In this document: piece after piece, positions 1,976-35,509 of the stretch
Layout of the letters: each line of letters begins with the position of its first letter
How positions within the stretch are numbered: the first letter of the stretch is position 1
From: a virus
IMG/VR virus record: IMGVR_UViG_3300035661_000188
Coordinates: 1 to 35,509 of that record
DNA length: 35,509 bases
Direction: 5' to 3' (one strand)
Notes under the pieces: generated by a model
The model's database searches: none
What the model was told of the DNA's origin: nothing
Seen by the model: only the letters and a program-made list of their open reading frames with translations
Translations under genes and position numbers: made by a program

Positions 1976-2473
1976 ATGAATACAGTAAATTATGCTCAAA
2001 CAACAAATATTATGGCTGGAAGTGATGTTTTTACAAATGTTCCATTTTATTTACAAACACTATCTATTCCTGGTGTAACTTTCTCTCATCCAGAAATGGG
2101 CGGGAGATTAGGTTCAAAATTTCATTTAACAGCAGATAATGTAACATATGGCTCATTGACTTTTACTGTTATAATGGACGAGAACTTTTTAGTTTATAAT
2201 GAACTACTTGACCTGGCAAAATCTCAAATGGATTTTACTACAGGTAGTTTTACAGATAAAACTTTTGATTTCTGGGTAGCTGTGACAGATTCTTCAGGAC
2301 ACGATGTTATGAAGTGGACATATCATAACACAAGATTAGAAAGTATTGCTGATATGCAGTATGATTACACTACAGACGAAACACATTTTACTTTAGATAT
2401 TACCCTATCTTTTGATCACTTCGACTATCAAAATATAAAAATGCCATCTGTTAAACCATCATTAAAAATATGA
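1976..2473 (+). CDS. Tail tube-fold protein (T4 gp19/gp54-like)
   Basis: A 165-residue protein with the size and layout of T4 gp19-type tail tube proteins. It has an N-terminal PGV/PxMGGRLG strand region, a central SLTFTVIMDENF segment (gp19 has WTVTVMNDE), and a C-terminal FTLDITLSFDHFDY strand (gp19 has FEVTLALDYWE). It would form, cap or start the tube through which DNA passes. It stands alone on the plus strand, away from the minus-strand tail and baseplate cluster, directly behind an exact late promoter and with an AAGGA ribosome site. The gp48-like gene of this phage is not followed by a gp54-like gene, so this could be the displaced tube initiator (gp54) instead of the major tube protein. 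The family fold is more secure than the exact role. Confidence 0.7.
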   Translation: MNTVNYAQTTNIMAGSDVFTNVPFYLQTLSIPGVTFSHPEMGGRLGSKFHLTADNVTYGSLTFTVIMDENFLVYNELLDLAKSQMDFTTGSFTDKTFDFWVAVTDSSGHDVMKWTYHNTRLESIADMQYDYTTDETHFTLDITLSFDHFDYQNIKMPSVKPSLKI

Positions 2474-15894: not shown

Positions 15895-16350
15895 TTAATA
15901 ACCTATAGCTATCATTCTGATTGTCCAACCATTTCCCCCAGATGTTCCCACTCTGTATGAAGTTGCAGTTAATGAAGAAACAGTGGTAACAGAACTTGAT
16001 ATAACCTCACTACCTATTTTACCCATAGAGTGTGAAAATGATAAACAGGCATTTGGAAAGGCTATTGGAAAGTTAAATGTAGTCCATAATCCAGTATCTA
16101 CCCATGTTGCCCATTGAATAATCAACCCACTAGGTAGTTTTTGATACCCATTAGCGGATAGAAGAGATACATCCCCTGATACTAAAGCTGTAACAAAAGC
16201 AGTAGTAGCCAACTGAGTAGTGCTTGTACCAGGTGTAGCAGTTGGAGCAGTTGGTGTTCCTGTTAAAGCAATAGATGTTGCTAAATCATTACTCATTACC
16301 ATACCATTTTGAATTGTATCAACTCCTGTATTGCCATCTATTTTTACCAT
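15895..16350 (-). CDS. Short tail fibre with gp53-like receptor-binding C-terminus
   Basis: A 151-residue fibre. The first 60 residues are the attachment/recombination module also seen in other genes here (DLATSIALTGTPTAPTAT, then TTQLATTAFV). The C-terminal 90 residues have the form of the tail fibre gp53-like C-terminal domain: GYQKLPSGLIIQWATW, a FPIAFPNACLSFS strand, a variable TTVSSLTATSYRVGT part, and the end GWTIRMIAIGY. That domain is a known fibre tip of many phages. Ribosome site TAGGAG. It is preceded by a 33-codon ORF and followed by an assembly chaperone gene. Confidence 0.8.
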   Translation of the reverse strand: MVKIDGNTGVDTIQNGMVMSNDLATSIALTGTPTAPTATPGTSTTQLATTAFVTALVSGDVSLLSANGYQKLPSGLIIQWATWVDTGLWTTFNFPIAFPNACLSFSHSMGKIGSEVISSSVTTVSSLTATSYRVGTSGGNGWTIRMIAIGY

Positions 16351-16362
16351 TTTGTGCTCCTA

Positions 16363-16464
16363 TTATAATTTTGCCAATAGCTTGAAAATCCAACTTCTAT
16401 CAGTGATATTAGCTTTCAAAATATTTTGGTCTTCGAGTTGAACATCTCCATAAAATGATTTCAT
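16363..16464 (-). CDS. 33-residue small ORF in a fibre-gene junction
   Basis: Starts with an ATGA overlap at the stop of the 143-residue gene and reads 33 codons (MKSFYGDVQLEDQ ... LLAKL). The start position suggests translational coupling. Its last 20 nt (16367-16386) are identical to the 3' end of the 112-residue chaperone gene (18932-18951) but in another frame. The small ORF therefore probably runs into a relic of a duplicated chaperone gene. Function doubtful. Confidence 0.4.
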   Translation of the reverse strand: MKSFYGDVQLEDQNILKANITDRSWIFKLLAKL

Positions 16465-16892
16465 AATAAAGATGCCTGATTAAATAACTCATCGAACTTC
16501 TCAGTAGTTAAATTAAGTTTAGGAATAAGCATTAGTACAAATTCACTATTACGATTGAGTTCTATAGTTAAATCCCATTCATCCTGAGCATCTTGATCAG
16601 ATGCTAATATATTCTTAAATGTTTCCCATATTCCAATATTTTTCATAGCTTTCATTGCCTGAATCCTTGTAATACTTTGTGGAACTATAGGTACTATTGA
16701 TGGAGTTATAAATTTTCCATCAATATAATCATCACCTATTCTAGCAACTAATGTATCATCTTCATGAGACTCATAGTACTCAAAACATTCGCCTATATGG
16801 TCAGGCGATGCTGTATACATCTGTGCAAAGTCATCATCTGCTATAATTACATTTATTACTATATTATTATCTACAACTGCAAAATTTTTCAT
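16461..16892 (-). CDS. Probable tail fibre assembly chaperone
   Basis: A 143-residue protein that begins MKNFAVVDNNIVINVIIADD, the pattern of short fibre assembly proteins, with a C-terminal helical part. The region IQAMKAMKNIGIWETFKNIL followed by FVLMLIPKLNL resembles the last part of such chaperones, which often have a two-helix end. It follows the Gly-rich fibre gene by 13 nt, which fits a dedicated chaperone for that fibre. Ribosome site GGGAG. The exact family is uncertain. Confidence 0.62.
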   Translation of the reverse strand: MKNFAVVDNNIVINVIIADDDFAQMYTASPDHIGECFEYYESHEDDTLVARIGDDYIDGKFITPSIVPIVPQSITRIQAMKAMKNIGIWETFKNILASDQDAQDEWDLTIELNRNSEFVLMLIPKLNLTTEKFDELFNQASLL

Positions 16893-16905
16893 TTAATTTC
16901 TCCCA

Positions 16906-17874
16906 TTACCAATAAACTATTATCTTACCTGAGCCGCCACCCCCGCCAGCTACACCACCACTAACAGTCCCACCAGCCCCGCCTCCGGCACCTGTGTTAG
17001 CAGAACCGGATACACCAGTTGAACCAGATCCACCTGCTCCGCCAGCTCCAAAAGCTCCTCCTCCGCCACCACCCCCACTTCCCGCAGCACCGCCCGGAAA
17101 TGATGAGCTTCTACCTCCTCTAGACGCCCCACCACCACCACTACCGCCAGCTCCTGAGTTCGCGGGTGCACCTACACTAACACTATTATCGGCACCACCT
17201 CCGGTGCCACCACCGCCATAACCACCTTGTAAAGTTAATGAGCCGAATGCTGATGAGCCCCCATCACCGCCATTAGTACCGGTGTTATTGCCTCCGGCTC
17301 CACCTCCACCTATTGTGACTGTTACCCCATTACCCGGAGTAACAGTGACAATATTAGGAGTTATTTCTGACCCAGATCCACCCGCTCCATAGTGTATATT
17401 AGGTGAATTTGCATCGGACGCGCCCCCGCCGCCACCCCCGCCGCCACAGCCAACTACCATAACTTTAGTAATACCCGCAGGAACTGTAAAAGTTCCGCTT
17501 GAAGTGAATGTTTGTGAATTTTGTGGAACTTTACCTGAAGATGTAGTCGAAGATGTGACAAAAGCGGTAGTGGCCAATTGAGTAGAATTATCTCCAACTG
17601 TAGCAGTTGGAGCTGTTGGAACACCAGTAAAAGCTGGTGAAGCCAAAGGAGCTTTCAAGTTATCAGCTGTTGTAACAAAAGCAGTAGTTGCCAATTGAGT
17701 TGTACTTGTACCAGCTGTAGCAGTTGGAGCAGTTGGTGTTCCAGTGAATGCTTGAGAATCAACTAAAGCCAATGTGCCACTAATGTCAGGTATTGTTATA
17801 GTTCTATTAGCTGTTGGTTGAGCACTTAAAGTAGTGCTAAAAGTTCCAGCATCATTATATTGTTTTATACTCAT
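16906..17874 (-). CDS. Glycine-rich tail fibre adhesin
   Basis: A 322-residue fibre. Residues 1-110 carry two fibre modules (LVDSQAFTGTPTAPTAT ... TTQLATTAFVTTADNLKA, and VPTAPTATVGDNSTQLAT). Residues about 125-150 form the strand SSGTFTVPAGITKVMVVGCG typical of phage Gly-rich tip domains. Residues about 145-322 are nearly all Gly with Ser, Ala and Asn, ending GSGKIIVYW. Gly-rich adhesins such as gp38 of T-even relatives fold into packed polyglycine-II helices whose loops bind the receptor, and the same is likely here. The GC content of the Gly-rich part (about 16920-17450) is far above the rest of the window, mostly because Gly codons are GC-rich. A late octamer lies upstream at 17920-17927. 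Confidence 0.82.
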   Translation of the reverse strand: MSIKQYNDAGTFSTTLSAQPTANRTITIPDISGTLALVDSQAFTGTPTAPTATAGTSTTQLATTAFVTTADNLKAPLASPAFTGVPTAPTATVGDNSTQLATTAFVTSSTTSSGKVPQNSQTFTSSGTFTVPAGITKVMVVGCGGGGGGGGASDANSPNIHYGAGGSGSEITPNIVTVTPGNGVTVTIGGGGAGGNNTGTNGGDGGSSAFGSLTLQGGYGGGGTGGGADNSVSVGAPANSGAGGSGGGGASRGGRSSSFPGGAAGSGGGGGGGAFGAGGAGGSGSTGVSGSANTGAGGGAGGTVSGGVAGGGGGSGKIIVYW

Positions 17875-17884
17875 ATTTAATCCT

Positions 17885-18280
17885 TTAAAGTGATTGAACT
17901 TTGGATACAGTTGTTGCTGTATTTATAGATATTTTCTGTGCTTGTAAATTATCGAAATTTACTTGATTACGTTCCAGTAATAGTACTGCTAAACCTTGTA
18001 ATTGAGAATATGTCATAGGAACCTTAATATTACTAATATCTAGCCAATAGAAATCAGATGGAACTGCTCCAACTGTTAGAACTTTTGATATCATATCTTG
18101 AGATTTGTAATCTGCTTGAAATGTTGTACCCATATATGCTATATTATTTTGATTAGAAGCATTATATGCTTCTGTTACTTCTGCTAGTTTAGTATATTGT
18201 GATTGTTCCAGTGTAATAGGAACTATTGGAGCATCAGCGTGTTCTGTTATATTTCCATCTATATCTATTTCTATTCTCAT
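17885..18280 (-). CDS. Tail fibre chaperone, DUF4376-like
   Basis: A 131-residue protein. The first 20 residues (MRIEIDIDGNITEHADAPI) are almost the same as in the 112-residue gene at 18917-19255. The C-terminal 90 residues (AYNASNQNNIAYMGTTFQAD, DMISKVLT, FYWLDISNIKVPMTYSQLQGL) have the pattern of the DUF4376 domain found in phage fibre-assembly proteins. It follows the 210-residue fibre gene by 2 nt and precedes the Gly-rich fibre. Ribosome site AAGGA. Assembly role is inferred from family and place. Confidence 0.72.
   Translation of the reverse strand: MRIEIDIDGNITEHADAPIVPITLEQSQYTKLAEVTEAYNASNQNNIAYMGTTFQADYKSQDMISKVLTVGAVPSDFYWLDISNIKVPMTYSQLQGLAVLLLERNQVNFDNLQAQKISINTATTVSKVQSL
17920..17927 (-). 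promoter_or_regulatory. Possible late promoter for Gly-rich fibre
   Basis: Exact TATAAATA on the minus strand, inside the end of the upstream chaperone gene and 45 nt before the ATG at 17874. Plausible but inside a coding region. Confidence 0.5.
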
Positions 18281-18282
18281 TT

Positions 18283-18915
18283 TTATCCTTCGTACATTAT
18301 ATTTATTGAACCAGCATCAACTGTGTCAGTTCCGTTTACGGTAGTTAGTCTAATTCTATCTATTACTCCATTTGCTGTAACAGTACCTCCACCTCCACCA
18401 TGGTAATTACTATCTGAATATCCAGTAGTGTGAGATGAAGTGTATGTATTTCCTGTAAATAAAGTTATTGTCATATGTCCGTGAATTACATGTGATGCAC
18501 TTGCACCAGCAAGTATCCCAAAACCAGTGGTCGAATTATACCCAGCAGTTCCTGCGCCTCCGATACCGTGACCACTTGCATAACCAGTTGTAACCAGAGA
18601 ACCAGAACCTATTTGTACTATTACTATACTTGTTCCATTTGTACTAACTCCATTAAACATTACTGTAATTCTCTTAACCCAACTAGGTATCCCAGTAAAG
18701 TCAATAGAAGTTCCACTTGTTGTTGCTACAGAAGTGCTAAGTACCATTTTTCCATCTACATAAGCAGTCGTAGCCAACTGAGTATTGTTTGTTCTAGCTG
18801 TAGCAGTTGGAGCAGTTGGAGTTCCAGTTAAAGCAATAGATGTCGCTAAATCACTACTTGTTACAGTACCATCTTGAATTGTATTTATTCCTGTATCGCC
18901 GCTTATTATTACCAT
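18283..18915 (-). CDS. Short tail fibre, paralog of the 19260 gene
   Basis: A 210-residue fibre. N-terminal residues 1-30 (GDTGINTIQDGTVTSSDLATSIAL) match the 151-residue fibre at 15895. The next 65 residues include LTGTPTAPTATARTNNTQLA and DFTGIPSWVKRITVMFNGVS, and are encoded by a 201-bp stretch identical to that in the gene at 19260. The centre (about 97-185, Gly/Ser/His-rich) is unique. The end, DRIRLTTVNGTDTVDAG ... NIMYEG, is again shared. Conserved flanks around a variable core suggest exchangeable receptor-binding tips. It lies 2 nt downstream of a chaperone gene and is followed by another. Confidence 0.8.
   Translation of the reverse strand: MVIISGDTGINTIQDGTVTSSDLATSIALTGTPTAPTATARTNNTQLATTAYVDGKMVLSTSVATTSGTSIDFTGIPSWVKRITVMFNGVSTNGTSIVIVQIGSGSLVTTGYASGHGIGGAGTAGYNSTTGFGILAGASASHVIHGHMTITLFTGNTYTSSHTTGYSDSNYHGGGGGTVTANGVIDRIRLTTVNGTDTVDAGSINIMYEG
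18628..18828. repeat. 201-bp exact direct repeat, copy A
   Basis: Identical to 19608-19808 (offset 980 bp) in the neighbouring paralogous fibre gene, in the same orientation. It encodes the TPTAPTATARTNNTQLAT module and the segment up to STNGTS. Identity stops sharply on both sides. Confidence 0.93.
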
Positions 18916-18916
18916 C

Positions 18917-19255
18917 TTATTCTCCTATAACAATTTTGCCAATAGCTTGAATACTCAATGCCAATGCTTCTTTAAGTTCGTCTATAGTTACAGTAACCCT
19001 AGAATTATCTGCTAGTTTCCATTCGGTTTCTGTAATATTTATAACACTTGATGATAAGATTGCTGATACCATTCTTTGTTGGTCAATATCTCTTCCGTCA
19101 AATGTGTTACCAGAAGTAGTAGTGACTTTGACAGATGCTAAAGCTTCAATCTTTTCTTGTTGAGCTAATTGCTGTATTTGCTCAGGAGTAATAGGAGTTA
19201 TCGGAGCATCTTCATGTTCTGTTATATTTCCATCTATATCTATTTCTATTCTCAT
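18917..19255 (-). CDS. Tail fibre chaperone, related to 17885 gene at the N-terminus
   Basis: A 112-residue protein sharing MRIEIDIDGNITEH-x-DAPI with the 131-residue chaperone. The rest (LASVKVTTTSGNTFDGRDID, then MVSAIL and VTVTIDELKEALALSIQAIG) matches the C-terminal part of DUF4376-type fibre assembly proteins. It lies 4 nt after the 233-residue fibre gene and 2 nt before the 210-residue one. Ribosome site AAGGA. The last 20 nt recur in the junction at 16367-16386. Confidence 0.75.
   Translation of the reverse strand: MRIEIDIDGNITEHEDAPITPITPEQIQQLAQQEKIEALASVKVTTTSGNTFDGRDIDQQRMVSAILSSSVINITETEWKLADNSRVTVTIDELKEALALSIQAIGKIVIGE
19036..19043 (-). promoter_or_regulatory. Possible late promoter inside chaperone gene
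   Basis: Exact TATAAATA on the minus strand, 120 nt before the start of the 210-residue fibre gene. Because the spacing is long and it lies within a coding region it may be chance. Confidence 0.3.
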
Positions 19256-19259
19256 TTTT

Positions 19260-19961
19260 TTATCCTTCGTACATAATATTAACTAAACCAGCATCAAAAG
19301 CATCAGTTCCATTTACTGTTGTAATTCTTATTCTATCTAATGTTCCAGATAGAGTTTTAGACCCAGCTACAAAGCCAAAGAAGTTAGTATCACTTCTTCC
19401 CATAATTCCATTAGCTACCCAGATATTTCCTGATATATTTGATATAACAACTTGTCCTTGCTGTACAACTGTTGCTAATCCAGTTTGTATTGTCTCAAAG
19501 CCAGTAGATAGATTAGAGTAGCTTGCAGAACCTCCGATGTTTCCGCATGCACCAGCATATGAAGTAGATTCTATTCCTCCAGCAGTACCTACTCTTATTG
19601 CTGTATCACTTGTTCCATTTGTACTAACTCCATTAAACATTACTGTAATTCTCTTAACCCAACTAGGTATCCCAGTAAAGTCAATAGAAGTTCCACTTGT
19701 TGTTGCTACAGAAGTGCTAAGTACCATTTTTCCATCTACATAAGCAGTCGTAGCCAACTGAGTATTGTTTGTTCTAGCTGTAGCAGTTGGAGCAGTTGGA
19801 GTTCCAGTAAATGCTTGAGAATCTACTAAAGCTACCGAACCACTGACATTAGGAATAGTTAAAGTATAATTAGCAGAAGTATTATTAACAGGAGCTATTG
19901 TTACGCTACCACCTAAAGTATTTCCAAATACCATTGTTCCATTTGAATTTATTGTTGACAT
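19260..19961 (-). CDS. Short tail fibre, paralog of the 18283 gene
   Basis: A 233-residue fibre. Residues 1-55 (TLGGSVTIAPVNNTSANYTL ... VSGSVALVDSQAFTGT) are like the N-terminus of the Gly-rich fibre. The next block is the 201-bp-encoded module shared with the 210-residue fibre. The centre is different, and the C-terminal end (DRIRITTVNGTDAFDAG ... NIMYEG) is again shared. The start is ATG 19961, overlapping the TAA of the gene upstream by one base (TAATG). A longer start at 19976 has no support. Confidence 0.8.
   Translation of the reverse strand: MSTINSNGTMVFGNTLGGSVTIAPVNNTSANYTLTIPNVSGSVALVDSQAFTGTPTAPTATARTNNTQLATTAYVDGKMVLSTSVATTSGTSIDFTGIPSWVKRITVMFNGVSTNGTSDTAIRVGTAGGIESTSYAGACGNIGGSASYSNLSTGFETIQTGLATVVQQGQVVISNISGNIWVANGIMGRSDTNFFGFVAGSKTLSGTLDRIRITTVNGTDAFDAGLVNIMYEG
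19608..19808. repeat. 201-bp exact direct repeat, copy B
   Basis: Identical to 18628-18828. Recombination between the copies would delete or duplicate 980 bp, including the 112-residue chaperone gene, and would fuse the two fibres in frame. Confidence 0.93.
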
Positions 19962-20332
19962 TATAATACCACCCATCGTGAACCAGAAGATACAGTGACT
20001 GTTACACCACTATTTATTGTTACATTTCCATTTGAATCACCTACAGTTACAGCAGACATTCCAGAAGGAATTACATAGTTTGAAGTGACTGTAAAACCAT
20101 TATTGTTGAATACTTTGTCAGTCCCTCCACCTGTTGCTCCACCACCAACTGAACCCCAAGCTCCATTTACATAAGCTTCCATTGCTAATAAATCAGAGTT
20201 ATATCTCATATATCCATTAACAGGAGATGCTGGTCTTTGAGCTGTTGTACCAGATGGCATAAATGCAGCACCCGTATCTGAGTCTTTACTTACTTTTATA
20301 ACATTTATTTGGTCAAGTGAATATTCGATCAT
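19961..20332 (-). CDS. Detached fibre-tip-like protein related to the long fibre C-terminus
   Basis: A 123-residue protein. Residues about 18-123 align with the last 100 residues of the long fibre at 13170: TGAAFMPSGTTAQRP (long fibre TGASFIPVGTTLQRP), NGYMRYNSD (NGLIRYNTD), GGGATGGGTDKVF (GGGAVGGGQDKVF), and a final strand ending RWVVL. It lacks a shaft, so it may be a separate tip subunit or a fragment left by recombination. It starts in an ATGA-type overlap with the 120-residue gene and runs directly into the next fibre gene. Confidence 0.7.
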   Translation of the reverse strand: MIEYSLDQINVIKVSKDSDTGAAFMPSGTTAQRPASPVNGYMRYNSDLLAMEAYVNGAWGSVGGGATGGGTDKVFNNNGFTVTSNYVIPSGMSAVTVGDSNGNVTINSGVTVTVSSGSRWVVL

Positions 20333-20691
20333 AGTGCGAATTCTCCTATTTTTTGAGGTCTTAAGTATTCTTTAGTAGTCCCATCCATATCTACATAACT
20401 CACTGGTACATCATATGGATATACCGATTTATATAAAGCCAGAGATACTTCATTAGCAAACAGCTCCTCATAAGTACCAAGTGATTGTATGGACTTCAGA
20501 GTACCTATAAATGCTAATTCCTCATCTGTAAGGATAGACATTGCTAAACTACCATTTTTATTTTTAATAACTGGGGTGGTTTGGATAGTCCATCCAGTTA
20601 CAACTCCATCTATATCTTTTGTTTTATAGCTATCAGGAAGTTCGTTCATAAAAGCTATAGTATCTTTACAATATGTAATAACATAATTCAT
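20329..20691 (-). CDS. Small protein in fibre cluster, possible chaperone
   Basis: A 120-residue protein with no recognised domain. It follows the large fibre gene at 20726 by about 34 nt and overlaps the fibre-tip gene by 4 nt. It has strand-like ends (NYVITYCKDTIAFM at the start, PVSYVDMDGTTKEYLRPQKIG at the end) and a helical middle. By position it may assist fibre assembly, as the other small genes here do. The ATG at 20691 follows a GGAGATAATAA ribosome site. Confidence 0.6.
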   Translation of the reverse strand: MNYVITYCKDTIAFMNELPDSYKTKDIDGVVTGWTIQTTPVIKNKNGSLAMSILTDEELAFIGTLKSIQSLGTYEELFANEVSLALYKSVYPYDVPVSYVDMDGTTKEYLRPQKIGEFAL

Positions 20692-29047: not shown

Positions 29048-30007
29048 TTAAATCACCATTGTATTTGAAGCAGATTTTAAAGTTATTGCTGCACCAGAAG
29101 TTATATTTACAGCACCCGAAGATTGCAGAGTAGATGCACCTGTAGAAAAAATATTTGATGTACCTGTTGTTTTAATATCAAGAAGTCCAGTAATAACAGA
29201 ATTAACATTTCCAACTACATTTAGTTTTGCGTTTCCATCAACTGATATATTTGTATCAGCGTTAGAAGTTATATTGATATTACTATTTGCTAAAATATTC
29301 AAATCATTATTTGTTTTAATAATAGCAGGACCATTTGAAGTAATATTTATTGATTCTGATGTATTAATTTGTATTGCTCCAGTAACACTCATTGTAAATG
29401 TATTTAAAACAGTTCCGGTAAATTTACCAGCTGTCAACTCTGTTCTATCTTTAACAGAACTTACGTGAATGCCTTCATTATTTAATAGAACTTCATTTCC
29501 ATTAGTGTGACAAATTCTTATTCTTTCATTTCCAGCACTATCATCAATTTCTATAATATGACCGGCTAAAGTTTCAATTACATGATTATCAGGATATCCT
29601 GGAATTGCCAAGTCATTAACATCTGACTGTCCAAGTCTTGAAGCAACTGGCAAGTCATATTCTCCGGCTTGTGTTGGTGTTCCTGAAACTGCGCCTATAA
29701 CAATTGGCTGATTTGGATTATCATTATCTAAAATAACAAGAACCCACGTGCCTGTTCTAGGAATAGATGTTTCACCTATTCCTGTTCCAAATCCAAATGC
29801 CAAAGATTGCATTACTTCTGCCCAAGGCAAAGTTGAAGTAGGAACTAAAGTTTTGTCTTGTGAATGAATTCCAAAAATTCTTACTTGTACTCTTCCATCT
29901 TTTTTAGGAGAATCATTATCTTCTATAATTCCTCTATACATTTTAAATAAATTATTAATACTTTTTAATTCATCTATTGTCGGAGTTGATTTAGCTTCTT
30001 TTTCCAT
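29048..30007 (-). CDS. Baseplate spike protein, gp5-like OB-fold and beta-helix, no lysozyme domain
   Basis: A 319-residue spike protein. Residues about 20-120 are the OB-fold seen in gp5/gpV/VgrG (MYRGIIEDNDSPKKDGRVQVRIFG, then GTGIGETSIPRTGTWVLVILDNDNPNQPIVIGAV). Residues about 125-319 are a repeated TxNIxSxGxAxIxTx pattern that forms the triple beta-helix needle. T4 gp5 has a lysozyme domain between the two, and here none is present. A wall-degrading role appears to be moved to the large protein at 32666. It follows the gp27-like hub gene by 1 nt. Confidence 0.86.
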   Translation of the reverse strand: MEKEAKSTPTIDELKSINNLFKMYRGIIEDNDSPKKDGRVQVRIFGIHSQDKTLVPTSTLPWAEVMQSLAFGFGTGIGETSIPRTGTWVLVILDNDNPNQPIVIGAVSGTPTQAGEYDLPVASRLGQSDVNDLAIPGYPDNHVIETLAGHIIEIDDSAGNERIRICHTNGNEVLLNNEGIHVSSVKDRTELTAGKFTGTVLNTFTMSVTGAIQINTSESINITSNGPAIIKTNNDLNILANSNINITSNADTNISVDGNAKLNVVGNVNSVITGLLDIKTTGTSNIFSTGASTLQSSGAVNITSGAAITLKSASNTMVI

Positions 30008-30008
30008 A

Positions 30009-31175
30009 TTAAACCTTTTTCTTGTCTGTGTTATTTACTCTTCCTACACTAATCTTTTGAATCATTTTTGTACCAGCTATCTTATCGTGAATAGATAAAA
30101 CCAAATAATCTCCGTTTAATATCTCATCTCCAGATTTTAACTCTTCTGTGTGTATTGTAGAACCAATAATCTTTACTCCTCTTCTTTCAAATAGAACATT
30201 ATCAAGGACTCCAGGAACAAATAGTTCTAAAGTTGTATTCTGAATATAATTAAAAAATGTTTCTTTTGAAAGCATATCAACACCACTATTAACTTCATCA
30301 TATGACTGCTGAACACCATTTGTATTTTGAATATAAAGCTCTTTTGATAATGACATATTCATATCATCGTACAAATCGGATAAATTTGATTTATTTTCGA
30401 TTATTTTTTTATTTAAAGGATCATAAACCCACGTGCTTTTTATAGGTACTCTCAAATTGTCATAAGTATTATTAAAATCTGTTGTAACATCTAGTATTTT
30501 ATAAAGATATTTAGGATTTTCAACATCTTGTGAAAAATTCCTTTCTGGCTTTGTTTCTGACGCTGAAGGATATAAAGATTTTATATGTTTAATTTCATAT
30601 GAGTTTTTTTGTTGAAACCAAACAAATCCTTCTTGATTTAGCTGATACTCAATAAAGTCATAAAGACATCTGTCTCCAGGAATTACAAAGTTTTCATATG
30701 TTGTATTTGTTTGAGCAAAGTTTCTTTTAATTTTTGATGTATCATAAGAGCTGTCTATTTTGAAAATACTAAAAATATCTTCAATAATTGCACTTAATTT
30801 AATATTTGAATAACCTTTTGAATAAAAAGTATTTTTTAATATATAAGAAACAGTATCAATTAAATTTATATTTAGGACTCTTATATTTTCATCTGATAAT
30901 TTTGTTGTTTTGATTTGCATAATATGAAATTCTCTTTCAAAATGAACATCCGATAAATCAGTAACTTGTAGTTTTACTTTTTTTTCTTTAAAATCTGTGA
31001 ATAGATTCATTACATTGGCATTATCAACGATCATCATTGTTGCTTGAACTTCAAATTTATTAAAATTCCAATGAATCTCAATATCTTGCATATTTTCATT
31101 TAATACTTCATTATCATCGATAAAAACTTTAACTAATTTTAAATCGGACGAGGCGTCAAATAATCCTTGTTTCAT
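30009..31175 (-). CDS. Baseplate hub protein, T4 gp27/P2 gpD-like
   Basis: A 388-residue hub protein, the trimeric base on which the spike stands. It has the gpD/gp27 pattern: N-terminal beta domain (VKVFIDDNEVLNENMQDIEIHW, KVKLQVTDLSDV), the segment IVKNT-like ILKNTFYSKGYSNIKLSAIIEDIF, the central QTNTTYENFVIPGDRCLYDFIEYQLNQEGFVWFQ typical of tail tube/hub proteins, and a C-terminal barrel. It lies next to the spike gene, as expected for gp27-gp5 partners. The start ATG is preceded by AAGG. Confidence 0.82.
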   Translation of the reverse strand: MKQGLFDASSDLKLVKVFIDDNEVLNENMQDIEIHWNFNKFEVQATMMIVDNANVMNLFTDFKEKKVKLQVTDLSDVHFEREFHIMQIKTTKLSDENIRVLNINLIDTVSYILKNTFYSKGYSNIKLSAIIEDIFSIFKIDSSYDTSKIKRNFAQTNTTYENFVIPGDRCLYDFIEYQLNQEGFVWFQQKNSYEIKHIKSLYPSASETKPERNFSQDVENPKYLYKILDVTTDFNNTYDNLRVPIKSTWVYDPLNKKIIENKSNLSDLYDDMNMSLSKELYIQNTNGVQQSYDEVNSGVDMLSKETFFNYIQNTTLELFVPGVLDNVLFERRGVKIIGSTIHTEELKSGDEILNGDYLVLSIHDKIAGTKMIQKISVGRVNNTDKKKV

Positions 31176-31177
31176 AA

Positions 31178-31654
31178 TTAACCTTTATAACCATATTGTT
31201 TCATTATAACCAAAAATTCGTTAAGTTTAAATGGTTTAATGATTTTTAAGACTCTATTATTGTCATTAGAAGTAGTAATTTGTTCTAACCAAAATTCTGA
31301 AAGTTCTTCTCTTTCTTTTGAAGGAATAACAGATTTATATACATTTGATTCATAACTATTAATAATTTCATCTGAAAAATCTGTCATTAATATGTCACTA
31401 TAAAACATATCAAACAATGGGTCACGATTATTTAACAATACTAATAAGTCCCAGTATTTTGTAGAACCATAAAGATCATATGCAATTGATTCTATCGTTT
31501 GATTTTGAATAATCTGAATGTACGTAATAAAAGTTAAATCACTTGCTTCAGGAATATCGTACACCTTTGTACGTTTATCTCCAGCGAAATATTTAATATT
31601 AATTCCTCCAACTTCTTCTGTTGGAAAAACTAATTGAGAATTTGTCATAAACAT
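31178..31654 (-). CDS. 53: Baseplate wedge protein, T4 gp53-like
   Basis: A 158-residue protein. The central block TIESIAYDLYGSTKYWDLLVLLNNRDPLFDMF is typical of gp53-type wedge proteins (E-x-I-A-Y-x-L-Y-G ... W-x-x-L-x-L-N-N-x-x-D-P) and has the LysM-like flavour of this family. It would fix the wedges together around the hub. It lies between gp48-like and hub genes. Ribosome site AAGGAC, start ATG 31654. Confidence 0.8.
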   Translation of the reverse strand: MFMTNSQLVFPTEEVGGINIKYFAGDKRTKVYDIPEASDLTFITYIQIIQNQTIESIAYDLYGSTKYWDLLVLLNNRDPLFDMFYSDILMTDFSDEIINSYESNVYKSVIPSKEREELSEFWLEQITTSNDNNRVLKIIKPFKLNEFLVIMKQYGYKG

Positions 31655-31663
31655 TTTAAGTCC

Positions 31664-32656
31664 TTATTTTGCAGCTGGGTCTGCAGCTGGGTCTGGAGTA
31701 AGTAAACCTGTTATTCCTTTGCCCGCACTTACAGCCGCGTCTTCAATGAAATTTCCCCCAGCCTTTATAGCATTTGTCATACCAGTTGAAGCTACGTCTA
31801 AGGCATCCAATGAATCAGTAGTTGGATCATATTTTTCCTTTCCGAACAATTGTTTAGTCATTGCCGAAATTTCTGAACAAGCCACAGTTAATTTTAAATA
31901 TTTTGGAGTTCCATCAAAATATAAATCCATCATACCAGAACCAGCATAATCAACTGTTACAGCAGTAATAACTACTGGCTGAAAATGAATAGATTTCAGC
32001 TTAGGATTGGACACATCAATTAACCAAAAATTTGGTGCTTCAAGAATCGCATTTGTTATTACTTGATCTGGAGAAGAATATATCTTGAAATTATTAATTG
32101 CAGTAAAAATATCTCTAGCCATTAAATCTGATTCTATAATTAAATCCCAAGAAAATGAAAAAGTTCTACACTCTGTTCCACTATATTTTTGAAAATATCC
32201 CGGGTCTGCCCCTGGTACACGTGTACCAGATTTTGCTGCCGTTTCTTGAAGAGCTTTCATTGCAACATCTCCAGCTCCGCCACCGTATTTGCCTAATACA
32301 GAACCTAATTTTGATGCCGCATCTTTTGCTATTCCTGTTTCTTTTGCCCATTCGTGTCTAAGGTCTTCACTAAATGCATTTGGTAAAGGCATACCTATAA
32401 CAATTTGTGATCTTTTATTTTGTAAAAGATTTTCTGCGAGTGTCTTATGAGTCGTAGCTTCATCTGATGTTAAATTTTTATTTTTTGCATCTTCTGCATT
32501 TTTAGACTTATCTGCAATACAAGCAGTAAATGTAATAATCATATTTGGTGAAAGATTTCTAAAACTATAAACAGAAGGAGACTTTTCATTAGCAAATGTT
32601 TTCGATGTTTGAGTTGTATCTGGTAAATTACTTGTTTGTTTGTTTGATTTGCTCAC
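31664..32656 (-). CDS. 48: Baseplate tail-tube cap, T4 gp48-like
   Basis: A 330-residue protein predicted to cap the hub and start tail tube assembly. The C-terminal half has the gp48 pattern: ECRTFSFSWDLIIESDLMARDIFTAINNFK, then NFWLIDVSNPKLKSIHFQPVVITAVTVDYAGSG, then YFDGTPKYLKLTVACSEISAM. The N-terminal 140 residues are polar and Ala/Gly/Lys-rich with a loop KYGGGAGD. The start is GTG at 32656 behind AAGGAG. It directly follows the large tail protein, as gp48 follows the tape measure gp29 in T4. Confidence 0.8.
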   Translation of the reverse strand: MSKSNKQTSNLPDTTQTSKTFANEKSPSVYSFRNLSPNMIITFTACIADKSKNAEDAKNKNLTSDEATTHKTLAENLLQNKRSQIVIGMPLPNAFSEDLRHEWAKETGIAKDAASKLGSVLGKYGGGAGDVAMKALQETAAKSGTRVPGADPGYFQKYSGTECRTFSFSWDLIIESDLMARDIFTAINNFKIYSSPDQVITNAILEAPNFWLIDVSNPKLKSIHFQPVVITAVTVDYAGSGMMDLYFDGTPKYLKLTVACSEISAMTKQLFGKEKYDPTTDSLDALDVASTGMTNAIKAGGNFIEDAAVSAGKGITGLLTPDPAADPAAK

Positions 32657-32665
32657 CGAAACTCC

Positions 32666-35509
32666 TTATAAAATGGTACTTCTAAACAGATCACTTGGGT
32701 GATATTGATCAGCTTCTTGTGGACTATTTATATTATTATTAGAAATATTTGTTGTTGTTTGTCCTCTATCTTGAGACATAGATGAGTCTTTTTCTTTAGT
32801 TGATTTAACAATATCTTCAGAAGCTTGTTTTACTATATCTTCTTTAGGTTTTTTAGAAACTTCTGGAGTGGCAGTATCATCATTGTCATCATCGGAATCA
32901 TCCACATCTTTATTAATTTCATCTTCAGACACAGTTGGTTTTGTCATATCCCCTTTTGGTTGAACTTTCTGAGAAGTTTTCTTAACTGATGCTGCAGCTG
33001 ATGTATCTCTGGCAGGAGCATTGACACCATCTCCCACAACAGGAACTTTTGCAAGTGCTCCTTTTCTATCTCCAATTGGCTCAACGTGCCAAGGCTCATT
33101 GCTCAATGGACGATATAAACCATATTTTGCTAATAAACCCATTTGGGCAGCTTCATTCACTGGACCAACATCTGATTTATTTAAGTCAACAGCTAAGCCT
33201 TTTTCGTGGAAAGACCTTCCAGGAGGTGCAACATTTTTACCAGCTTTGACAGCATCTCCACCATCTTTTTTTAGTTCAGCTGCATAAAGGGCAGCTTGTT
33301 GAGCTGTACTTCTATAACCAGAAGTCATAGTGATAGTTTTTTTAGTTCTTTGATTATATTCTCTTGCCATTGCACCAATATTTCCCATCAGTGCTTTATT
33401 AACATGTTCTGTATCAATTGTTCCTGCTGGTTTAAGCCCAACAGCGCTTTTAAACCCATCCCAGACTCCACCAATAGCACTAGATGCTTTTCCTGCCAAT
33501 GAGTCATCTACAGTAGGAAGGGCTTGTCCACCACTTGCAGTATATTTTTGCATTCTTGAATTAGTTTCTGCTTGTCTTCCGTCAGCATTATTATATGCTA
33601 CATTAGCACCAGAATGTCCAGCATTAATAGTCTGACCAAGTGCTTTTGTATTTCCTGCTTGAGCTAAATCCATAGCTGATTTTTTTGTTGTCGGATCAAT
33701 ATGAGTTTTTAACCACACGAGTGTTGCTTGAGCTGCAATATTTTCATTTGTTGCCAACAAATCAGGATTGTTCTCTAAGTCTACACCAATTTTTTTACCA
33801 ATATCTCTATAATTAGCACGACCGGTAATTTGAATAAATCCACGACCTTTGTATTTTTGTCCATCACCTGGTTGGGTATTTCCAAGTTCTCTGGCTTTAC
33901 CAGGACTATATTGAGGGTCGTATCTATTAAAATAAGGGTCAATGCCTGTTGCTGGATTAGGACCATTACCCTGTTCTGTCATTCTCTTAAACCCAGTCTC
34001 TGCAGCAACTTGTCCAGTAATATTAGCTATTGTTTTAGGGTCAGTAACTCCGGCAGCTCTGATATTATTAACAAATCTTGCTTCTCGTTCTTGAGCTTCC
34101 TTTGTTCCAAGGACTGCTTCTTTAGCAGAATTCCAAACATTTTGAATACCTTGTCCAGCTGCTCCTGCAGCATTTCCAATAGTAGATGCTAATTTTCCAA
34201 AAAATCCTTGTGGAGATTGAGAAGGAGATTTTGGTGGAGGAGGTACTGGTGCTTTTTTATTGTTTGATTCTTCTTTGGCTTTGGCTGCATCTTTTGCGTC
34301 TTTTTGCTTTTTTAGGTTTTCTTCAGAAGATGATTTTACTTTTTTTGATTTTTCATCATCTGTATTCTCTTTAAAGTATGCTAAAATTAAACCTTTAATA
34401 TGTTCTAGTCTTTCTTTGGCATCAGGGTCTTTTTCAGGGTACACATTATAAACAGCTTGATAAACATCTCTAGCAATAATAACAATATCAATTGCAGCTG
34501 AAGCAGCCGTGCCAACAACTGGGAACATTGCCGCCCCACCAGAAGCAATACTTAAAGCTGCCCCTGTTGTATCTCCTTGCATATATGAAAATGCTCCAGA
34601 AACAGCAGCGAAGGCTAAACCAAGAACAGGTACTTTTCTAATACCAGCACTTATTAATGACTTTGCCATAATTTTTTTAATAGCTGTCATAACAACACTT
34701 CTTGATGCTAATTTGCCTGCTTTTGAAACAAGGTTTGCTTTAAGCGTTACTTTAGGAGAAAAAAATAATTTCTTAGCTCCTGATATAACAGATTTTACTC
34801 CATCTTTAGCTGAGTTATATATTGATTTAGCTTTTGAACCAACTTTTTCGGCAACAGATTTTACTCCATCTTTAGCTGAGTTATATATTGATTTAGCTTT
34901 TGAACCAACTTTTTCAGCAACAGATTTTACTCCATCTTTAGCTGAGTTATATATTGATTTAGCTTTTGAACCAACTTTTTCAGCAACAGATTTTACTCCA
35001 TCTTTAGCTGATGTAAATATTGATTTAGCTTTTGAACCAACCTTTTCAGCAACAGATTTTACTCCATCTTTAGCTGATGTTATTTTGGAAACAATATTTT
35101 TTTTAATTAATTCTTTTGCACTTTTAAATTTTTCAGCTAATTTAACAAATGGCCTTTTTACAGCTCTTCCAAATTTAGAAGCAATTCTTTTCATCACTGA
35201 GACACCTAGGAGATTAGCTAAACCACCAAGAATAAAGTCAAACATTGAACCTGTTCCACCATCATCTTTTGTACTCGACTTTACATCACCAGGAATTTTT
35301 AAACCGGCTTCTTGCTGTTTTTTTACTTCCTTATATTTAGTGTCTTGTTCATCAATTAAATCATCTGCTAATTTTTTAAGAAATTCTGAAGTTTTTTTAG
35401 ATTCTTCTAAATTTTCTTTATTAACTTCAAGAATTTGATCTGATGTTTTAATAAGTTTTTCTGCTTGTTCTTCAGCTTTATTTTGAGCATCAAGCCCAAT
35501 TGAACTTGA
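32666..35509 (-). CDS. Large tail protein in tape-measure position with GH19 and M15 cell-wall domains (5' end beyond window)
   Basis: The frame stays open to the window edge, so the first Met at 35245 is probably internal; at least 947 residues are encoded. The 88 residues before it are coiled-coil-like and charged ([17 protein letters not shown] type). Then come basic N-terminal helices, four and a half copies of a 22-residue repeat (34787-35085), a hydrophobic region (about 34480-34650, likely membrane or tail lumen), a Lys/Glu linker, a GH19 lysozyme-like domain (about 33530-34110, [11 protein letters not shown] and [13 protein letters not shown]), and an M15B VanY-type peptidase domain (about 33060-33430, [24 protein letters not shown]). 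The end is acidic and Asp-rich. The position before gp48 matches the T4 tape measure gp29, so it may set tail length and digest peptidoglycan at infection. A structural lysozyme outside the tube is the alternative. Confidence 0.8.
32725..32732 (-). promoter_or_regulatory. Possible late promoter for gp48-like and baseplate genes
   Basis: Exact TATAAATA on the minus strand near the 3' end of the large tail protein gene, 68 nt before the gp48-like start. Plausible internal promoter. Confidence 0.55.
34787..35085. repeat. 66-bp tandem repeats encoding 22-residue units
   Basis: Five anchor copies of CATCTTTAGC at 34801, 34867, 34933, 34999 and 35065, exactly 66 bp apart, mark about four and a half near-identical units. 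Each encodes a 22-residue unit of two 11-residue halves ([11 protein letters not shown] and [11 protein letters not shown]). The copies differ by only a few bases. The array lies in the large tail protein gene. Confidence 0.95.

Follow-up and report, generated by a model that had tools for sequence, protein, structure and literature searches.

A lysine-rich 22-residue tandem repeat, probably a helical spacer, in a putative tape measure protein of a marine T4-like phage

The window, by which we mean the whole 35,509-nucleotide stretch analysed (IMG/VR record IMGVR_UViG_3300035661_000188, positions 1 to 35,509), closes on a minus-strand gene whose start codon lies past the window end. Contig L002 supplied the full-length product, of 1070 residues. 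On the coding strand, gp26-like and gp51/26-like hub genes precede this gene, and a gp48/54-like tube cap gene and a gp53-like gene follow it; after these come a gene for a protein at the gp27 position, a gp5-like hub gene and genes for gp25-like and gp6-like wedge proteins (Table 1). From its position and size we infer that the protein at the gp27 position is the counterpart of gp27. The order in T4 is 26/51-27-28-29-48-54, and the gene preceding 48 is 29, that of the tape measure (PMC3004832). With hub-assembly genes on one side and the tail-tube cap gene on the other, the array gene occupies the place of T4 gene 29. This setting bears out the assignment to a tail protein made in an earlier, sequence-only reading of the window.

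Table 1. Features of the array gene and of the tail genes downstream of it (window coordinates).
Feature	Position	Strand	Residues	Basis
Tape-measure-position tail protein with lytic domains	32666..35509	minus	124-1070 within window	
DEQDT motif, N-terminal border of the variable linker, common to the family	35339..35353	minus		alignments
First hydrophobic segment	35192..35248	minus		hydropathy scan
66-bp / 22-residue tandem array	34787..35080 (34787-35083 by Tandem Repeats Finder)	minus	267-364 (98 residues)	Tandem Repeats Finder and unit reading
Second hydrophobic domain	34439..34636	minus	415-480	hydropathy and moment scans
GH19 chitinase/lysozyme-type domain (PF00182)	33671..33880	minus		E 9e-11
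VanY / M15 D-Ala-D-Ala carboxypeptidase domain (PF02557)	33161..33403	minus		E 3e-10
C-terminal tail, conserved with distant family members	32675..32875	minus		profile-profile match, 67 columns, E 4e-5
Tail tube cap, gp48/54-like, directly downstream of the array gene	31664..32656	minus		phrog_230
Baseplate wedge, gp53-like	31178..31654	minus		PF11246 just below cut-off; phrog_232 E 7e-4
Protein at hub position, gp27-like by place and size	30009..31175	minus		PHROG matches are unnamed families
gp5-like hub / spike protein	29048..30007	minus		phrog_430, PF04717

Two Vibrio phages, Va1 and pv27, have the same gene order, and Campylobacter phage CPt10 and Vibrio phage Va2 have it in a less complete form. 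The syntenic genes of these four phages are annotated as endolysin, peptidase or glycoside hydrolase; in the pv27 paper the list of tail genes contains no tape measure, and the gene syntenic to the array gene is labelled endolysin (PMC12063606). A T4 gp29 profile, which found T4's own protein, had no match in Va1, CPt10, Va2 or G001. That no gp29 homolog was found elsewhere in these genomes supports, without proving, the view that the syntenic gene may encode the tape measure. When the array protein itself was compared with gp29 by hhalign, the probability was 0.5% for the single sequence and 0.2% for a profile of six gp29 proteins, and no homology to the T4 gp29 family (phrog_1283) was detected. 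The two proteins are alike in their place between the hub genes and gp48, in a hydrophobic middle and, by eye, in an Asn-rich C-terminal end. In contrast to the array protein, gp29 has no lytic domain and, by eye, no array of this kind, and its N-terminal half is net negative.

Within the array protein, the strongest amphipathic, Lys/Arg-rich stretch detected in a moment scan is unrepeated and comes after the first hydrophobic segment. The second hydrophobic domain is present in most of the family members checked and, by profile search, also in Va1 and Va2. A glycine zipper was sought in this domain and only one GxxxG was found; a zipper like that of Tde1 (PMC10240207) is not claimed. The GH19 domain also matches solved GH19 endolysins and chitinases in the PDB. 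The best PHROG match of the protein is the 'endolysin' family phrog_181, and several PHROG tape measure families match the repeat and hydrophobic part (E 1e-11 to 1e-5). An AlphaFold model of residues 129-541 was all-helical, but its low confidence (pLDDT 46) means that helicity is not established thereby, and the model was left out of the fold searches.

When Tandem Repeats Finder was applied to the whole window, the array proved to be by far the strongest tandem array in it (score 550, period 66, 4.5 copies, 96% matches). Reading of the units on the minus strand gave four complete 22-residue units and a half unit, with few sites differing among them; the fifth unit departs from the pattern after SAKDGVKSV. 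The 66-bp array of 22-residue units described in the sequence-only reading was therefore confirmed, and its proposed recent expansion agrees with the near-identity of the units. The same reading had divided each unit into two 11-residue halves. This division holds as a common hydrophobic pattern, at positions 3, 7, 10 and 11, but not as sequence, as only 2 of the 11 residues are identical.

As a DNA pattern the repeat occurred, among all viral contigs, only in L002 and L003; in genomes from 84,980 species of bacteria and archaea it had no match. A search for closer relatives through the gp53-like and gp5-like neighbours returned the same two contigs and distant loci only. Over 4437 bp L002 and the window are 100% identical, so L002 gives no independent count of copy number. 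L003, the only close relative (88% identity), carries 2.6 copies by Tandem Repeats Finder compared with 4.5 in the window, that is, two units fewer, so that in this one comparison repeat number varies between related phages, as had been expected. The two full units of L003 have in common Q for K and GGT for GGA. The units of the window lack these changes, an indication that units have been homogenised within each lineage.

In a search of phage records with the array alone, 266 records matched at E<0.1, tape measures among them with E down to 3e-7. Sixty rows sampled evenly down this ranking were annotated as tape measure (57), hypothetical (2) or 'FELS-2 protein' (1). Two scrambled 22-mers of equal composition, repeated in the same manner, matched 1 and 3 records and no tape measure, so the likeness of the array to tape measures exceeds composition. 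The alignments to the tape measures of one Blautia and one Leuconostoc phage were largely gap-free and kept a common 22-residue register with Y opposite W; in this register the array unit pairs with SVWNGIKSVTSSVFNAV without gaps. The tape measure of TP901-1 has 11-residue, aromatic-marked repeats and hydrophobic regions, and deletion of its repeats shortens the tail (PMC5099701); 11-residue tape measure repeat units have also been described in PMC3271669. The array protein resembles these and other Gram-positive phage tape measures (PMC5099701, PMC3271669) in the 11/22-residue register, the hydrophobic regions and the variable copy number, as well as in an aromatic residue at a fixed position of the repeat (Y/F in the array, W/F in TP901-1-type tape measures). 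Unlike them, it lies in a contractile, T4-like gene order and carries two lytic domains, and its array is lysine-rich, has Y/F and not W, is short (98 residues) and consists of near-identical units. The likeness to siphophage tape measure repeats may reflect convergence of helical 11-residue patterns; homology would be equally compatible. The earlier suggestion that the segment could be a length-adjusting ruler fits the gene order and the closest matches of the array, which are tape measure proteins; of the two functions proposed in the sequence-only reading it is the better supported.

Distant members of the family were found via the tube cap gene and via a family profile, with DEQDT used as a search pattern. 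They have in common the DEQDT motif, the hydrophobic domain and the C-terminal tail, while their lytic domains differ or were undetected. The linker was taken as the segment between the DEQDT motif and the hydrophobic domain, with borders set by position and hydropathy and not by lysine content. It is lysine-rich in 18 of the 19 members, the window included (Lys 17-27%, compared with 8-15% in the rest of each protein); the exception is Va1, whose linker borders are uncertain. A tandem array is found in the linker of 14 of the 19, with units of 3, 4, 5, 6, 8, 9, 11, 12 or 22 residues. The 33-bp array of L018 (4479-4796; 11 residues, EKDSRKSEKDL/H, 9.6 copies), which sits in the linker position matching that of the window array, is far more hydrophilic than the 22-residue array. 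Between L016 and L024, two near-identical contigs from different samples, there is a length difference of 192 bp in a 45-bp repeat located after the hydrophobic domain of the array-gene counterpart; this could possibly stem from repeat collapse in metagenome assembly. The near-identical contigs also include L022, L050-L052 and L056.

Among the annotated phages, the 'endolysin/peptidase' genes of Vibrio phages Va1, pv27 and phiKT1024 and of Campylobacter phage CPt10 also adjoin the tube cap gene. A lytic domain is present in the three Vibrio-phage counterparts as well, and Va1 matches the family profile. All four genes differ from the array gene in lacking the 22-residue array and in being annotated as lysis proteins. 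The CPt10 gene has no family-profile match; only its position and a DNQDT motif place it here.

The hydrophobic moment of the unit at the 11/3 helix angle is 0.43, compared with 0.19 +/- 0.09 for shuffled units on the Eisenberg scale; 0.8% of 5000 shuffles reach this value, and the Fauchere scale agrees (0.6%). The peak of the moment at 98 degrees is a consequence of the 22-residue period itself. On a helical wheel, V/I/A/Y cover an arc of ~100 degrees with flanking lysines, and D/E/S/T lie on the opposite side, so the Lys/Ala/Val amphipathic pattern seen in the sequence-only reading is sustained, Lys being found beside the hydrophobic face. The clear hydrophobic face, a moment above 99% of shuffles, a mean of 1.2 for the array in a simple lipid-binding discriminant and a Pfam apolipoprotein match that is weak (E 2e-4, but 21.8 bits where the cut-off is 90) all speak for a membrane-active helix, whose Lys-flanked repeats would, after ejection, lie on the inner membrane in a synuclein- or apolipoprotein-like manner and aid DNA crossing. 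We nevertheless find this explanation improbable. Synucleins share with the array an 11-residue amphipathic pattern and Lys beside the hydrophobic face, but the proposed likeness to synucleins, perilipins and LEA proteins does not extend to sequence. No synuclein, perilipin or LEA model was among the Pfam matches listed at E up to 10, and a PDB search with the array gave no significant match, synuclein appearing only at E 2-9, below a tail tape measure and designed helices; such kinship was rejected. Neither the setting of the array nor its conservation points to lipid binding. The fraction of 18-mers with a moment >0.4 is <=0.10 in 12 of the 19 linkers, in which charge is kept, and only the window, L003, L018/L064, L067 and, to a lesser degree, L060 have many such 18-mers. 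A conserved role as a membrane-active helix is thus at odds with the relatives, in most of which the matching segment is lysine-rich and non-amphipathic. The stretch ahead of the array, which is not repeated, equals or exceeds it in amphipathicity and is more basic. The adjoining hydrophobic domain is a better membrane candidate, and membrane action is more likely to reside there than in the repeat itself; an adjustable spacer is the more likely reading of the array.

Neutral slippage, where the linker need only exist and arrays arise and are tolerated with length and sequence being functionless, would account for a unit that differs in almost every lineage and for length variants (192 bp) in near-identical contigs, and the coding sequence is AT-rich. 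However, 18 of 19 members retain the lysine enrichment and the positive charge despite the change of unit, the reading frame is kept in the arrays read, and scrambled repeats fail to match tape measures, all of which leave this account with a slim chance of being correct. The protein might also be a tail-tip lysin and not a tape measure, with the repeat as a tether letting the two enzyme domains reach the wall; the GH19 and VanY domains and the annotations of the syntenic genes agree with this. Yet the syntenic L016 and L021 have no lytic domain in their PHROG matches and keep the N-terminal motif, linker, hydrophobic domain and C-terminal tail, the T4-type order puts the tape measure at this very place, and elsewhere in the genomes tested there is no match to the gp29 profile. 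We consider the lysin explanation unlikely.

The observed place of the gene, the architecture of the protein, the specific likeness of the array to tape measure repeats and the change of linker unit and length between relatives make the following reading reasonably probable: in a marine T4-like contractile phage, the gene product is the tape measure protein, and the array is a fast-evolving helical spacer within it that expanded recently. As such a spacer, the segment would lie as a helix inside the tail tube, with its V/I/Y face contacting neighbours and its lysines facing a negatively charged lumen; lumens of this kind have been reported in some phages (PMC8718954), other than the one studied here. 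Slippage or unequal recombination would add and remove units, and this would be tolerated because only length, charge and helicity would matter. During infection the protein would exit the tube, the hydrophobic domain would contact the inner membrane and the GH19 and M15 domains would open the wall, the repeat serving to set reach or length. Each unit would add ~3.3 nm of helix and two units ~6.6 nm, which is not a whole number of ~4-nm tube rings and counts against this reading. In contig 3300037400_005024, unlike in the other relatives, the DEQDT-family gene (L071) lies ~80 kb from the gp48-like gene (L023), a rearrangement that is a point against the tape measure reading and is not explained by it. 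The DEQDT-family gene of L071 holds several different lysine-rich arrays. The pv27 tail measures 103 +/- 11 nm and its syntenic protein has 878 residues (PMC12063606), values compatible with a length rule; for the related Vibrio phage phiTY18 a tail of 66.7 nm has been reported. As the published lengths disagree, we drew no tail-length correlation.

Repeats of 11 residues in tape measure proteins were already known, and the variant described here is a lysine-rich array in a T4-like lytic tail protein. Our results suggest that in a group of marine and Vibrio T4-like phages the genes usually labelled 'endolysin' encode the missing tape measures, and that one segment of these proteins is selected for charge and length rather than sequence. 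A bolder and doubtful extension is that copy number within populations shifts in a hypervariable, lysine-rich repeat cassette of this clade's tape measure, slippage tuning tail length, or the reach of the lytic and membrane domains, like the contingency loci of surface proteins. The natural variants (4.5 and 2.6 units, and the 192-bp variant) would allow the tape measure rule to be tested without engineering.

The phage has at least four tail-tube-like genes (phrog_45): one in the window (1976-2473, plus strand) and three consecutive ones beside the hub genes in L002 (1491-2006, 2046-2864 and 2879-3478, minus strand). Four tail tube proteins have likewise been reported for pv27 (PMC12063606). 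Elsewhere in the window (15895-20691), the tail-fibre-type open reading frames have repeated modules in common, with five copies of a TPTAPTATAGTSTTQLATTAFVT motif at the DNA level and a 232-bp duplication at 94%.
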